Virus record (IMG/VR): IMGVR_UViG_3300020119_000206 | Location: 1-31,957 of that record | Strand: one strand, 5' to 3' | From: a virus | DNA: 31,957 nt | In this document: positions 1,554 to 13,336 of the stretch, in pieces | How positions within the stretch are numbered: the stretch's first letter is position 1 | How the letters are laid out: each line of letters begins with the position of its first letter | Notes under the pieces: model-generated | What the model was told of the DNA's origin: nothing | Database searches by the model: none | The model's input: the letters and a program-made list of their open reading frames with translations, nothing else | Program-made: the position numbers and the translations under genes

Positions 1554-2141
1554 ATGAGCGACTTGACCCTGACTCGAGATCTCGTGACGACGCTGAGCGA
1601 TCTGGAGATGCTCGGCGTTGACGTCGTGCGAACGAACGGCTTCAGGCTCCAAATCAAAGGAGGCGTTGTCCTTGACTGTTCTGGCAGCGCAGACTTCGCC
1701 GGTGCGCTACGAGTATTCGAAGAGGGTAAGCCGCCTATCGTGATGAGGCGTGATCCACGTCGCGGTTCGGGCATGGCCGGCCCTACGCTACTGATCGAGT
1801 GCGGCGTCATACAGCTATCTGCCCGCGGTGGCACCGGCAGTTCCGACGAGGCCCAGGTTGCTCAAGCCATTCGCGGGCGCGCGGGCTGGAGCGCGGACAC
1901 GGTTTTCGTTGCTGGCGGTGGGCCTGGTGGCGGCCCGCTTGAGGCGAAGCTGCCTAAGGTGACTATCGGACCAACACGATGTGGTTGCGGCGGAACGAAT
2001 GGCAGCGGCGAATGCCTCTGTGGCAAGCGTACGCAAGACATCGCCGACGCTGAGATGCTGCGTGTGCAGAAGTCGCAAGACGCCGAGGACGCCGAGTACG
2101 CCCGCGAGATGGCGAAATATTTCTCACCGCCATCGCGCTAG
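1554..2141 (+). CDS. Plus-strand hypothetical protein with Cys cluster (possible moron), 195 aa
   Basis: This is the only plausible gene between 1536 and 2137, and it reads against the surrounding operon. The protein begins MSDLTLTRDLVTTLSDLEML and contains an acidic/hydrophobic N-terminal half (FRLQIKGGVVLDCSGSADFA), a Gly-rich middle (VAGGGPGGGP) and, near residues 145-160, a CGCGGTNGSGECLCGK cluster with four closely spaced cysteines that could bind metal. It ends in a charged helix rich in Asp, Ala and Glu. Third codon positions in the part I read are mostly G or C, as expected for a real gene here. Its stop overlaps the stop of the convergent GH-like gene by four bases. I do not recognise the family. 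The orientation, the possible own promoter and the lack of virion-protein features suggest a gene expressed in the lysogen. Confidence 0.55.
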   Translation: MSDLTLTRDLVTTLSDLEMLGVDVVRTNGFRLQIKGGVVLDCSGSADFAGALRVFEEGKPPIVMRRDPRRGSGMAGPTLLIECGVIQLSARGGTGSSDEAQVAQAIRGRAGWSADTVFVAGGGPGGGPLEAKLPKVTIGPTRCGCGGTNGSGECLCGKRTQDIADAEMLRVQKSQDAEDAEYAREMAKYFSPPSR

Positions 2142-8845: not shown

Positions 8846-9688
8846 TCAGTGTTCAGCGATGAAGGGGTCGCCGGTCTCGGTGGTGAAAAAGTCGCTGCCG
8901 TCTTCAAGGTCGAAGAAGCCGACGGCCTCGTAGTCGATGAGCGTCACAATCCAATTGTGAGTTGGTCGCAGCTTCAGAAGCAGCCGTTCAAACTCCGCAC
9001 GTCGCGTGATGTCGACGACCGCGTGGTCGGGAAACGTCTCGCCACCGATGTAGATGAAGTAAGGCCATTTGCTCGGGTCGTCCGGAACGGGCGGCGGTGG
9101 CCTGCGCGTGAGGTCGAGATTGACGAGATAGTGGGGATCGTTAGCTAGGAAGCCGTTGCACTGGGGCTGTGTTGCAAGCGACGAGCACTGCGGCTGTGAC
9201 CCGCCGACCCCACCGAAAGCGTCACCCTCGCATTGATAGAGCCCGATCAGTGGCTGGGTTGTGTAGGAGCGTGGATCTCGAGCGACATATGGCGGTCCCG
9301 AGCTCCACCACTCGTACACGAAGACGTTGAAGCCAGCAGCCTGGAGGATCCCCTGGATGTAGCCGGGCGATTGTCCGCCGGCGGCTTGCCACTCAGCAGC
9401 GACGGCCGCGCGCCGCGCATCGAAATCGGCGAGGTCCGCCGGAGCGAGACCGAATTGCCTCTCCCACTCCTCGAGTGCACCCGATCGCTCTTCCAGAGCG
9501 ATCGACGTGTCGGTGGCGCTGCGCGCCGTGCCGGGGAACAGGTCGAGATAGACCTTGTCGATATAGTCGCGCGTCGCCTGCGGCTGCTCGGATAGCCCGA
9601 GGAAGAAGCGCCGCAGAGCGCTGGCGGCCGAAAGGCGCCAGACCTGGCCCCTCGGCAACAGATGCTGAAATAGCGAGAAAAATGACAC
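8846..9688 (-). CDS. Baseplate protein, Mu gp48 / YmfQ (DUF2313)-like, 280 aa
   Basis: It starts at a GTG at 9688 without a strong ribosome binding site. The N-terminus (SLFQHLLPRGQVWRLSAASA, then LRRFFLGLS) has the LLPxGxxW pattern of the YmfQ/DUF2313 family, the gp48-like proteins that join the baseplate to the fibres. A helical region with GALEEWERQFGL and a second with RRAAVAAEWQAAGGQSPGYI, then AAGFNVFVYE, fits the same family. The C-terminal half contains an insertion with closely spaced cysteines (CEGDAFGG, PQCSSL, PQCNGFLAN) before the conserved PTHNWIVTLIDY segment near the end. In Mu-like tails gp48 follows gp47 directly; here a fibre gene and a plus-strand lipoprotein gene lie between them. 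Confidence 0.75.
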   Translation of the reverse strand: MSFFSLFQHLLPRGQVWRLSAASALRRFFLGLSEQPQATRDYIDKVYLDLFPGTARSATDTSIALEERSGALEEWERQFGLAPADLADFDARRAAVAAEWQAAGGQSPGYIQGILQAAGFNVFVYEWWSSGPPYVARDPRSYTTQPLIGLYQCEGDAFGGVGGSQPQCSSLATQPQCNGFLANDPHYLVNLDLTRRPPPPVPDDPSKWPYFIYIGGETFPDHAVVDITRRAEFERLLLKLRPTHNWIVTLIDYEAVGFFDLEDGSDFFTTETGDPFIAEH

Positions 9689-9739
9689 CTGGGCGCGGGC
9701 CTTGGTAGTTTTGCCAGTGACGCGTCAGGCGTTCAGTCG

Positions 9740-9768
9740 TTGCGTAGTGAATGGCTCGGGCCTACGCT
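9740..9768 (+). promoter_or_regulatory. Putative promoter for the plus-strand lipoprotein gene
   Basis: TTGCGT (9740-9745) and TACGCT (9763-9768) have a 17-base spacer. The match to consensus is modest, but the geometry equals that of the promoter proposed before the other plus-strand gene (1519..1547). The -10 box ends eight bases before the ATG at 9777, so the message would be leaderless or nearly so. No Shine-Dalgarno sequence at normal spacing is present. Confidence 0.3.
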
Positions 9769-9776
9769 TTGGGATC

Positions 9777-10655
9777 ATGCGCAAGCTGTTGGCTTTGGGG
9801 TTTCTCGTCGGAGCGTGTTCGAGCGTCCCGGCTAAGCAGGAGGAGCTGCAGGCTGGTGGCGGGGACGCGGCGAGCGATCGACGTGCAGCGAGCTCCGCCG
9901 GCTCCGGAGTCGCAGCCTCGGCTACCTCTTCGGCGGACGCCAACAGCACCGGCGGCACCGCTGGTGAAGCCTCCGCCGGTTCGGTCTCAACTGCAGGAGC
10001 GGGGACCACGAGCGCTAGCGGTGGTCAAATCACAAAGGATGGAGCCGGCGGCGCGAGCGCATCTGGGTCGAGCGCAGGCGGCGCCAGCGGCACACCAGCT
10101 CAGGCCGGCGCGACACAGGGCGGCATGGCAGACGGCGGCGACTCGAGTGGTGGCGGCGGCGGCGCGGCAGACGATCCCTGCGAAGGCGTTGCGCATTGGA
10201 GCCCCACCGACAAGATCACCGACTACACGCCACGGCCGCCGGACGCCCCCGGAGATTGGCTAGGCGACCTGCGCGTCTTCGGAGGAATTCTTTGGGCTGC
10301 GCAGGCGACGGAATGGTGCCAGACCTTTCCTGGCCATGACGGCCAGAGCGGCTGGATCGAGATTACGACCTGTGCAGGCGGCCCGGTTGCTGAGACGGCG
10401 GCTTGCCAATGCGCTGCCGGAGCCTGTTGCGACGGCTGTTATCTGCGCGGGCAATCGTATTTCTGTGGCGAAGTTGTGCGAGCCGTGCGCTGCACTGGCG
10501 GCACCGAAGAGGGTGACTATTGGAATCTATTCTGCGATGGCCTCGATGCTGGCAATTGCACGGGCTGGGGCGCGCATACCAAATATGCTGGCGGATCGTG
10601 CGCCTCGGGCATCACATGCCAAAGCTCAAGCGTCGAAACGGCGTGCGGTCCATGA
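9777..10655 (+). CDS. Lipoprotein with Ser/Ala/Gly linker and Cys-rich C-terminal domain (moron)
   Basis: A 292-aa protein read against the tail operon. The ATG at 9777 is chosen because it gives an ideal lipoprotein signal: MRKLLALGFLVGAC, with lipobox V-G-A-C and lipid-carrying Cys14 followed by two serines, so no Asp inner-membrane retention signal. Residues about 25-135 are a low-complexity linker of Ser, Ala, Gly and Thr. From about 140 to the end is a compact domain with 15 cysteines, including ACQCAAGACCDGCYL, and several Trp and Gly residues, likely disulphide-bonded. This architecture is common in Myxococcota surface lipoproteins. It is not a virion component by appearance. Expression from the prophage to alter the host surface (superinfection exclusion or receptor masking) is a reasonable guess without direct proof. 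Confidence 0.75.
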   Translation: MRKLLALGFLVGACSSVPAKQEELQAGGGDAASDRRAASSAGSGVAASATSSADANSTGGTAGEASAGSVSTAGAGTTSASGGQITKDGAGGASASGSSAGGASGTPAQAGATQGGMADGGDSSGGGGGAADDPCEGVAHWSPTDKITDYTPRPPDAPGDWLGDLRVFGGILWAAQATEWCQTFPGHDGQSGWIEITTCAGGPVAETAACQCAAGACCDGCYLRGQSYFCGEVVRAVRCTGGTEEGDYWNLFCDGLDAGNCTGWGAHTKYAGGSCASGITCQSSSVETACGP

Positions 10656-10658
10656 GTC

Positions 10659-10674
10659 GCGCCTAGCTAGGCGC
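10659..10674. terminator. 16-bp perfect palindrome between convergent stops, possible bidirectional terminator
   Basis: GCGCCTAGCTAGGCGC lies between the lipoprotein stop (10653-10655) and the fibre stop (10667-10669) and includes the latter. A hairpin would have a six-bp GC-rich stem and a four-base loop. No T-tract follows on either strand, so intrinsic termination is uncertain; it could also be a protein site. Confidence 0.3.
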
Positions 10675-11686
10675 CGAAGTTGAACGTAACGACGACGACG
10701 CCCTGGGCGCCATCGCCGCCAGCTCCGCTTGTGGTGCCAGCCTGACCGCCGCCGCCGCCGCCCGCGCCGTAGCCCGTACCGCCTGGTCCACCGTTGGTGG
10801 GTATCGCTCCTAGGCCCTGGGAGCCTATTGCTCCTGAAATACCAGGGAAAAGACCGCCGCCGCCCCCGCCAGGACTTTGGCGTGAGCCTACACTAGCAGC
10901 GCCCAGCCCACCCGGACAGCCGCTTAGAGCTCGTGTTTCTGTGCCAGCGCCGCCGCTACCGCTCCCCGTACCTACAGCCCCGTCACTACCTGAAGCGCCT
11001 CTGAAGCCGCCCGCACCGCCAGCCCCAGCGGCCACACCGCTAGCACCACCACCACCCGAATAACCGTCACCACCTGCGCTACCGGGCGCGCCTTTGCCGC
11101 CTTCACCAATTACATCAAAACCTGTAGATAAGTCTCTGAATGTCGATGTGCCACCGTCACTGCCAGCGTTGGCCGGATTGGCGCCGGTAACCCCGACAGC
11201 TCCGCCGGCGCCGCCAGCGCCGACGAAAACGTCGAACGTGGGCCCGAGCAAAGCACGCTCTATCCGCTCGAGCCGCACATAGCCGGAACCGCCGCCGCCG
11301 CCGCCGCCAGTCGTCGTATTACCAGCGCCAGAGGCCCCGCCGCCGCCGCCCCCCACAGCCGTCACCTCGATAGATGTCACGCCAGCTGGGATCGCGATTC
11401 CAAAAGCCGTAACCGTGTACGTGATGACCTGCGCCCCTAGAAGCGCGCGCAATGCATCCAGATACTGCGAGGCACCGACCTTGTCGGGGACGTTGCTCGG
11501 CGTGATGCCCGCGCCAGCGAGTAGGGCCTGCTGAAACCCGAAGATGTCGTTGACGAGATCTTTTTCGAAGGGCGTGCCCGTGCCGTCCCCCTCGACGCCA
11601 ATGTTCCGCGCTTTGCCGTGTGGGTATCCGACGGGGTCAGTCGTGTCTACTTGACCGGGGTATCGGGCGCTGGGATCGAGTGCCAT
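10667..11686 (-). CDS. Glycine-rich tail fibre/adhesin, 339 aa
   Basis: The ATG at 11686 follows the gp47-like stop by seven bases. Residues 1-95 form a normal fibre lead (DTTDPVGYPHGKARNIGVEG, then a helix KDLVNDIFGFQQALLAGAGI and ASQYLDALRALLG). Residues about 95-115 (TYTVTAFGIAIPAGVTSIEV) are the strand that usually precedes a Gly-rich tip (compare 'f-t-x-x-G-t-f-x-v-P-x-G-v-x-x-v'). The remainder has repeated GGGGGG and GGAGG blocks and closes with GVVVVTFNFGA, the typical end of Gly-rich fibre domains. A (CCG)6CC run at 11289-11308 encodes one Gly block. It probably forms a receptor-binding tip. It sits between gp47-like and gp48-like genes, an unusual place. Confidence 0.75.
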   Translation of the reverse strand: MALDPSARYPGQVDTTDPVGYPHGKARNIGVEGDGTGTPFEKDLVNDIFGFQQALLAGAGITPSNVPDKVGASQYLDALRALLGAQVITYTVTAFGIAIPAGVTSIEVTAVGGGGGGASGAGNTTTGGGGGGGSGYVRLERIERALLGPTFDVFVGAGGAGGAVGVTGANPANAGSDGGTSTFRDLSTGFDVIGEGGKGAPGSAGGDGYSGGGGASGVAAGAGGAGGFRGASGSDGAVGTGSGSGGAGTETRALSGCPGGLGAASVGSRQSPGGGGGGLFPGISGAIGSQGLGAIPTNGGPGGTGYGAGGGGGGQAGTTSGAGGDGAQGVVVVTFNFGA

Positions 11687-11693
11687 GGGCGGT

Positions 11694-12902
11694 TCAGATG
11701 AAGGTCGGTGGCAGACTCAGCTTCGCTTTTTCGCCGTGTCCAAGCGTATATGCGGGGCCAGGGCCTCCCGTCAGTTTGACGAGGGTCACTGTCGCGCCCA
11801 GCGCGTTCACGATGCTGTCGACGATGCCGCTCACCGCTGCGTCCGTCACGCGATCGTTGCGTGGTAGCACCGACAGCCCGACAATGAACGGCTCACGCGA
11901 GCGCAGGTATTCGTCGACGCCATCCTGGATGGCCTGTCGCGTTTCCGGCGTATCCGGAGTGAGAGCCGTGACCTCGAGATTGAACGCACGCCGTGTGATC
12001 GGCAGAACGTTCGGCGCTGCGTTCACCGGTCTGCGCGTTGCTTTGCCGCCGATGTCGAGATTGATAGACGCAAGAACCGCCGCGAGCTGTGGACCTGTCG
12101 GAATTCCGTCAGGGCTTCCCGAGCTCGCTTCGTCAGCCTCGACGTAAATATCGACCTCTCCCGGTCCCCGCGTGGGAATCCTATCCTCGCCCGCGTACGG
12201 GTAAACGTTCACGATGCCAGGGACCTCTTCAGCCCACTGGACGTAGTCGGCATAAGCGCCACCCTGCGGGCGCCGCTGCACCTTGTCGAGGATTCGCCCG
12301 CGGTAGCGGTCAGTCGTCTCAGCATCGGCAGCGGTTACCGCCTGCGATAGGACAGCAGCCTTGGTCGCGACACCTGCCGGCGTGTTGGCGAACTCGACGA
12401 TGTCTCCAGGCTGGAGGTTGCCGATCGCGCCCGAGCCATCGCCGAGGCCTGGGCTAGATATGGCCCGCACGCGTACCGTGATCGTCGGCGCGTTCAGCGC
12501 GACCGCGGCCAGCACGATGTAGACGAAGCCGGACTCGCTGCGAACGAGCTGCTGCCCGGCGTTCAGGCTTCCGACCTGATTCAGAACGGTGACAGTGAGG
12601 TTGAGCTCCGCACGCGTCGCGGGCTCTGGGTCTCCGACTCCGAAGAGCCGCCCGAGCTCGACCAACGGAATGAGCTTGCGCCCGTTGACCGTCGTCTCCC
12701 TGTCCGAGGCAAACGCCACGAACATCTGCAAAAAGGAAAACCCGGCGTACTTAAAGAGCAGAACGAAGACGCCGGCGAGCACCTTCGCCAAGACGTTCAC
12801 GAACGCCTTGGGCAAGATCGGAATCGACTGCCCGATCTGCGCGCCGATTTGGCTGATGATCTGGGCGTTCAGATCGGCTGTTGTGGGAACCGAAAGGCTC
12901 AC
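11694..12902 (-). CDS. Baseplate J-like / Mu gp47-like protein, 402 aa
   Basis: The start is a GTG at 12902 overlapping the gp46-like stop as GTGA. The order spike, small protein, gp46, gp47 and the length near 400 residues fit Mu gp47 and P2 gpJ, the wedge proteins that build the baseplate ring. Sequence support: an N-terminal helical region, a beta region with AALNAPTITVRVRAISSPGL and GNLQPGDIVEFANTPAGV, then DRYRGRILDKVQRRPQGGAY with YVQWAEEVPGIVNVYPYAGE, the hallmark 'R-x-R-x-x-x-x-x-x-GG-x-x-d-Y-x-x-Wa-x-x-V-x-G-V' of the J family, and GEVDIYVEADE. The C-terminus ends in the usual VTLVKLTGGPGPAYTLGHGE region. Confident family call. Confidence 0.88.
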   Translation of the reverse strand: MSLSVPTTADLNAQIISQIGAQIGQSIPILPKAFVNVLAKVLAGVFVLLFKYAGFSFLQMFVAFASDRETTVNGRKLIPLVELGRLFGVGDPEPATRAELNLTVTVLNQVGSLNAGQQLVRSESGFVYIVLAAVALNAPTITVRVRAISSPGLGDGSGAIGNLQPGDIVEFANTPAGVATKAAVLSQAVTAADAETTDRYRGRILDKVQRRPQGGAYADYVQWAEEVPGIVNVYPYAGEDRIPTRGPGEVDIYVEADEASSGSPDGIPTGPQLAAVLASINLDIGGKATRRPVNAAPNVLPITRRAFNLEVTALTPDTPETRQAIQDGVDEYLRSREPFIVGLSVLPRNDRVTDAAVSGIVDSIVNALGATVTLVKLTGGPGPAYTLGHGEKAKLSLPPTFI

Positions 12903-13336
12903 GACTTAGCCCCAATCTTCTTCACGAAAGAAGGTGTTAACACCTTGTCTTGAATCTCGATCTTCACGTCTATCTTGACGGTGTTTACGGCGGTGATGCT
13001 TGCTGATGGCACGACCGCATCAGCGAGCTTCGTATCGAGCATCCACTGGAGGTCTTGAGCTGCAGCGTCTTCGATCAGCTGCAGGCTTGCCGAGGTGAGC
13101 GCCATGCCGCGGAGCAGGCTCTGCGTGCGGCTGCGCAGCTTCTCGTTGGCATTGGTGGCTACCTTATTCGCCCACCACTCAAGCGACTTTGTGTCGTCGT
13201 CTCCGGTGTCGTCTTCATTCGCACCGAAGAGGCTGATGAAGACTGCCGTCTGGACGCCGTCGTCCATTTCGATCTGGCCCGCCTCACAAATGATGTCGCC
13301 CCCATCATCGGTTTGGATGACGAGCACGTCAGACAT
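12899..13336 (-). CDS. Mu gp46-like baseplate protein, 145 aa
   Basis: Length and place (directly before gp47) match Mu gp46, a small wedge or attachment protein. The N-terminus MSDVLVIQTDDGGDIICEAG followed by QIEMDDGVQTAVFISLFGAN has the typical 'gp46 acidic lead, then D-G-l-x-x-a-v-x-i-s-L-f' pattern, and EWWANKVATNANEKLRSRTQ is the conserved W-W helix. It ends in a KIDVKIEIQDKV strand. The gene starts at an ATG at 13336, eight bases after the upstream stop, with a weak GGAG further upstream, and overlaps gp47 by four bases. Confidence 0.85.
   Translation of the reverse strand: MSDVLVIQTDDGGDIICEAGQIEMDDGVQTAVFISLFGANEDDTGDDDTKSLEWWANKVATNANEKLRSRTQSLLRGMALTSASLQLIEDAAAQDLQWMLDTKLADAVVPSASITAVNTVKIDVKIEIQDKVLTPSFVKKIGAKS

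Follow-up and report, generated by a model that had tools for sequence, protein, structure and literature searches.

Why should a lipoprotein gene be found on the plus strand among the baseplate genes of a tailed phage, facing neighbours that are read the other way? The window considered here, which is the whole stretch of DNA that we analysed, is a virus contig of 31,957 bases. Besides the genes discussed below it encodes a terminase, a portal, a protease, a capsid protein, a sheath, a tube and a tape-measure protein, and no lysogeny gene is in view within its 32 kb. An original prediction, made from this same DNA, held that the gene, placed between gp47-like and gp48-like genes that are neighbours in Mu-like phages, looks like a moron, expressed from the prophage and modifying the host surface, and that its architecture points to a Myxococcota host. 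In what follows we take that prediction as a starting point.

The gene and its neighbourhood

The features on which the argument relies are the following (strand, nature and basis are given for each).

8846..9688, minus strand: gp48-like baseplate wedge gene, divergent from the lipoprotein gene (Pfam Phage_Mu_Gp48 match)
9689..9776, plus strand: intergenic region upstream of the lipoprotein gene, with blocks kept in the related contig L002 (alignment)
9777..10655, plus strand: lipoprotein gene, 292 aa (open reading frame and lipobox; same-slot homologues in other contigs)
9777..9818, plus strand: type II signal peptide MRKLLALGFLVGA and lipidation residue Cys14 (sequence)
9819..10172, plus strand: low-complexity linker rich in Ser, Ala, Gly and Thr, about 118 aa (sequence)
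10173..10652, plus strand: Cys-rich C-terminal region, 15 Cys (sequence comparison)
10404..10652, plus strand: disintegrin-like core CxCxxGxCCDGC...FCxG...C, aa 210-292 (12-member alignment)
10667..11686, minus strand: tail fibre gene (Gly_rich_2), convergent with the lipoprotein gene, the two stops being 11 bp apart (family match and stop positions)
11694..12902, minus strand: gp47-like Baseplate_J gene, J in what follows (family match)
12899..13336, minus strand: GP46 gene (family match)

The lipoprotein gene (9777-10655, plus strand) is a single open reading frame of 292 codons, the product of which begins with MRKLLALGFLVGACSS. The minus-strand genes on both sides confirm that it is antisense between the fibre gene and the gp48-like gene, and its sequence bears out the lipobox, the Ser/Ala/Gly linker and the domain with 15 cysteines that had been read in it. 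Cys14 belongs to the lipobox LVGAC, and the 15 other cysteines are all located at residues 135-290; the first part of the Cys-rich region is common to the window and L002 only. The protein is without a match in PHROG, NCBIfam, PADLOC or the annotated phage collection that we searched with it, and it has no Pfam match above cut-off.

Upstream of the gene, a putative promoter-like arrangement is made of TTGCGT (9740-9745), a spacer of 17 bp and TACGCT (9763-9768), with the ATG following after 8 bp. The pattern TTGCGn-17-TACGCT, again 8 bp 5′ of the ATG, is kept in two genomes, the window and L002, and their upstream regions align with a score of 22, as compared with a maximum of 12 for shuffled sequences. 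As TACGCT is placed only 8 bp before the start codon, the message could be leaderless. A scan for consensus sigma-70 promoters and terminators gave no match, and a tRNA search was likewise negative. Elsewhere in the window, where the minus strand has no long gene, the interval 1554-2141 (plus strand) may hold a second plus-strand gene; counted from its ATG the product would be of 195 aa (MSDLTLTRDL...), and the phage loci compared contain no homologue of it.

A conserved antisense slot

Relatives were collected by a scan with the C-terminal region, which retrieved L002 and L003, then with profiles of J, gp48 and the lipoprotein. L002, an independent contig, carries a homologue with 48% identity in the identical slot. 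The Cys-rich core is present in 12 distinct contigs, namely the window and 11 other IMG/VR phage contigs (L002, L003, L024, L052, L056, L060, L066, L095, L130, L133 and L138; L025, a near copy of L024, was left out). Both flanks are visible in 11 of the 12, and in all 11 the gene is antisense between fibre and gp48, while the contig of the twelfth, L095, stops before gp48. In the 11 full-length members, 105-193 aa separate the lipobox from the conserved core. Other lipoproteins occupy the slot in L004 and L011 (the latter with an atypical lipobox, CVAC) and in L006, making at least three types in one and the same place. Wherever this could be measured (14 of 14 slot-bearing phages), the stop of the lipoprotein gene is found between -4 and +15 bp from that of the fibre gene. 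A single lipobox rule, applied to open reading frames of at least 140 aa, selected 11 of 42 inside the slot against 1 of 635 outside.

Outside the clade of the window, most relatives have J directly beside gp48, with 0-62 bp between the two, and the slot is therefore an insertion. The original prediction has nevertheless to be amended in two ways: the fibre gene belongs to the insertion along with the lipoprotein gene, and what we see is a conserved slot holding at least three lipoprotein types rather than a one-off insertion. A quick J tree places 13 of 13 slot-bearing rows within one 28-row clade (SH-aLRT 95) made up only of phages with a fibre gene between J and gp48 (two rows were not scored), with the window and L002 as sisters (98); phages where J and gp48 are adjacent fall outside it.

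This constancy of place might evoke a late function, that of a virion protein or of a lysis protein disrupting the outer membrane, the opposite strand being a matter of chance, as the gene sits within the structural operon and always adjoins the fibre gene. Co-transcription with the late genes is impossible in this orientation, however; a spanin-like architecture is absent, and the relatives where J and gp48 are adjacent manage without the lipoprotein, all of which makes a late function improbable.

Six contigs (L003, L024, L052, L056, L066 and L006) have one or two extra small antisense open reading frames upstream. We note that in three of them a small related membrane protein or lipoprotein gene precedes the antisense lipoprotein gene (L003 4339-4656, L052 11845-12243, L056 6518-6853), with a C-terminus resembling CVxAGLVxAAxLQAKxExxxxxWKxxExxDCAAxGMP. 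The extra small antisense genes upstream in L003, L024, L052 and L056 could recall the SitA proteins, lipoproteins with variable C-terminal domains carried by Myxococcus prophage-like elements (PMC5562445), and the slot protein would then be an outer-membrane-exchange toxin passed between myxobacterial cells by lipoprotein transfer. This appears very unlikely: family searches of the window lipoprotein matched no toxin domain, nuclease or otherwise, all 14 phages have the convergent fibre stop so close that a downstream immunity gene has no room, and the core is conserved, not polymorphic.

Selection also left its mark on the slot. Between L004 and L011 divergence is 6% in J and 29% in the slot lipoprotein, while dN/dS is 0.27 for the latter against 0.07 for both J and gp48. 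The slot gene of this pair is therefore constrained yet fast-changing: it is under purifying selection and evolves faster than its neighbours. Across 11 phages the lipoprotein core follows the backbone (Mantel r 0.51 with gp48, 0.41 with J), as would a passenger gene devoid of present function and retained by vertical descent. We find this view scarcely credible in the face of the dN/dS of 0.27 and of the 12 invariant columns, eight of them cysteines, that the core keeps across 12 divergent members. Unlike the backbone, the fibre in its variable C-terminal part does not covary with the core in the same 11 phages (Mantel r 0.16, p 0.12). A receptor-specific pairing of lipoprotein and adjacent fibre is thus disfavoured, and a cognate fibre-lipoprotein pair, which we had considered, is unsupported by this test.

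The cysteine-rich core and its Myxococcota relatives

At E 1e-4 the core profile had matches in 14 of the 235 Myxococcota genomes searched, as against 0 of 299 from Pseudomonadota (Fisher p 8e-6). The matching proteins are mostly large and of secreted type, and in some of them the core neighbours MopE repeats, Amidase_3, Golvesin_C or Peptidase_M23 domains. Among the host proteins we saw no lipoprotein that matched the phage one over its whole architecture.

Disintegrin modules are known from animal proteins. A profile search of the PDB with the core gave eight matches, all eight disintegrins and each weak (E 0.15-0.5), and the disintegrin cysteine spacings CxxGxCC..C....C and CxG.S..C are present in the core. 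Of 222 Myxococcota genomes, 48 contain the disintegrin family PF00200 itself above cut-off, whereas none of 14 controls does; the modules are often repeated in tandem within proteins that are 500-3300 aa long, and they are hardly discussed in the literature that we searched. One protein from a Myxococcota genome (L163) fuses the phage-type motif CQCSTGACCDGC to a classic disintegrin C half. When the phage cores were compared by hhalign with the Myxococcota modules the figure was 95%, against at most 28% for shuffled controls that preserve the cysteines; without the L163 bridge the corresponding values were 78% and at most 2.7%. The phage core thus resembles the PF00200 modules of secreted Myxococcota proteins in cysteine spacing and profile similarity. 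It differs from them in lying below Pfam detection (the 12 phage members gave no PF00200 row at E up to 10), in being without RGD or an RGD-type loop, and in being borne on a lipoprotein stalk. The AF2 model has a pLDDT of about 76-93 across the core; Foldseek found nothing significant for it in PDB and BFVD (E 0.001), and disintegrins, at Z 3-5.1, make up most of the VIA-align rows, a result to be read knowing that AF2 may have learned disintegrins. Because the phage members miss PF00200 and, among the structure comparisons, only the VIA-align one gives disintegrins, we call the core disintegrin-like, and not a disintegrin.

Among the other slot occupants, the lipoproteins of L004 (11991-12650) and L011 (10990-11646) resemble a metal-binding module of MopE type that is found in Myxococcota proteins, with a BLASTP value of 8e-6 in the single comparison made, with L004.

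Which host is concerned? The nearest phage to the window within a named genome is L097, from a MAG labelled Myxococcota, which belongs to the same eight-row group of the J tree as the window and L002 and has the fibre gene without the lipoprotein gene. MYXO-CTERM was found in 31 of 37 genomes of the phylum of this MAG and in 0 of 14 controls; the L097 contig is phage-like in the parts read, so that its Myxococcota link rests on the binning. Related J-gp48 modules are also seen in a Thermoplasmata MAG (L099) and a Nitrospinota MAG (L098), where the binning may be wrong. A J-based prophage survey of 377 Myxococcota genomes returned one weak match besides the MAG contig already known, and no slot-bearing lysogen. 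Of 10 records, the six that exceed 50 kb each have a tyrosine integrase, whereas the four fragments shorter than 32 kb have none. To judge by these comparisons, the phage of the window probably infects Myxococcota. The prediction of a moron of a Myxococcota phage is sustained in part, by the separate antisense accessory gene, the integrases of the long relatives, the C-terminal domain in common with secreted Myxococcota proteins and the likely host lineage, the host link of the window itself being indirect.

A proposed surface lipoprotein of the prophage and its known counterparts

Our preferred reading, to which we give a probability of about 0.42, is that the gene is a moron of a temperate tailed phage, specifying a surface lipoprotein that would shield or alter the host surface, most likely for superinfection exclusion. 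The antisense orientation and the tight convergence imply that late transcripts cross the gene, and its expression is expected with the late operon off. Read from a promoter of its own, opposite the late structural operon, it would be active during lysogeny or early infection, and late transcription crossing it in antisense would then shut it down. The product would be exported, lipidated at Cys14 and moved to the outer membrane. Such a placement is plausible, because Ser at position +2 is no retention signal under the sorting rule for M. xanthus lipoproteins quoted in PMC5562445. Lipobox and linker together point to a protein held off the membrane, where the long flexible linker would carry the disulfide-rich, disintegrin-like head. 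This head may bind a component of the host envelope, shield or alter it, and most likely exclude further phages.

We know of no role in phage exclusion for host homologues of the core domain. Exclusion is preferred because phage lipoproteins of known role often exclude (PMC9586334, PMC3952083) and because the fibre and baseplate neighbourhood is constant. Lysogenic conversion for the benefit of the host remains a close rival, possible though tentative, in that covariation with the fibre is missing. A host-type adhesin or envelope-binding lipoprotein would here alter how the lysogen contacts other cells, preys or interacts socially, rather than altering phage adsorption. The sharing of the core with Myxococcota secreted proteins, the likeness of the L004 slot protein to a host MopE-type module and the precedent of lambda bor and lom (PMC7067206) speak for it, while a pure host-fitness role leaves the fixed position beside fibre and baseplate genes unexplained and has no host lipoprotein of the same whole architecture to point to. 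A more speculative view, which we hold doubtful, sees the slot as a switch dedicated to lipoproteins assembled from modules of host type. A flexible stalk would display their disintegrin-like or MopE-like heads at the surface for as long as the prophage stays silent, and upon induction the structural genes would take over; the heads, mimicking host surface proteins, would control phage adsorption or recognition between myxobacterial cells.

Returning to a surface lipoprotein that excludes other phages, we may compare it with known systems. That prophages carry lipoprotein genes is, as such, already known. In T5 the gene of Llp adjoins that of the receptor-binding protein, and its product blocks the receptor (PMC9586334, PMC4728585). 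As with Llp/Cor, we have a phage lipoprotein whose gene adjoins a fibre gene, here in 14 of 14 phages, the fibre being only a putative receptor binder. Llp, by contrast, is small, periplasmic and acts on FhuA, whereas the gene of the window is antisense and its protein much larger, with a long linker, 15 Cys and no covariation with the fibre; no sequence relation to Llp/Cor was found. Ltp of TP-J34 is a superinfection-exclusion lipoprotein expressed from the prophage and regarded as a moron (PMC3952083), though with a Gram-positive host (Streptococcus thermophilus), a gene in the lysogeny module and a different domain. Lambda bor is likewise a lipoprotein gene of a phage genome expressed in lysogens (PMC7067206); Bor is nonetheless another protein, encoded at another place in the genome and linked to serum resistance. 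SitA, from the Mx-alpha prophages of Myxococcus, is similar as a lipoprotein of a myxobacterial prophage-like element with a modular C-terminus (PMC5562445), the lipoprotein of the window differing in having neither toxin domain nor immunity gene.

Against this background, the literature that we searched has no description of a fixed antisense lipoprotein slot set against the fibre stop in a divergent clade. What is new here is this conserved slot for lipoprotein genes, most of them with a disintegrin-like head. Its arrangement suggests an expression switch that can be tested; it brings into phage biology a disintegrin-like module that is common in the Myxococcota examined here; and the slot lipoprotein may serve as a marker for the phages of the poorly sampled Myxococcota.
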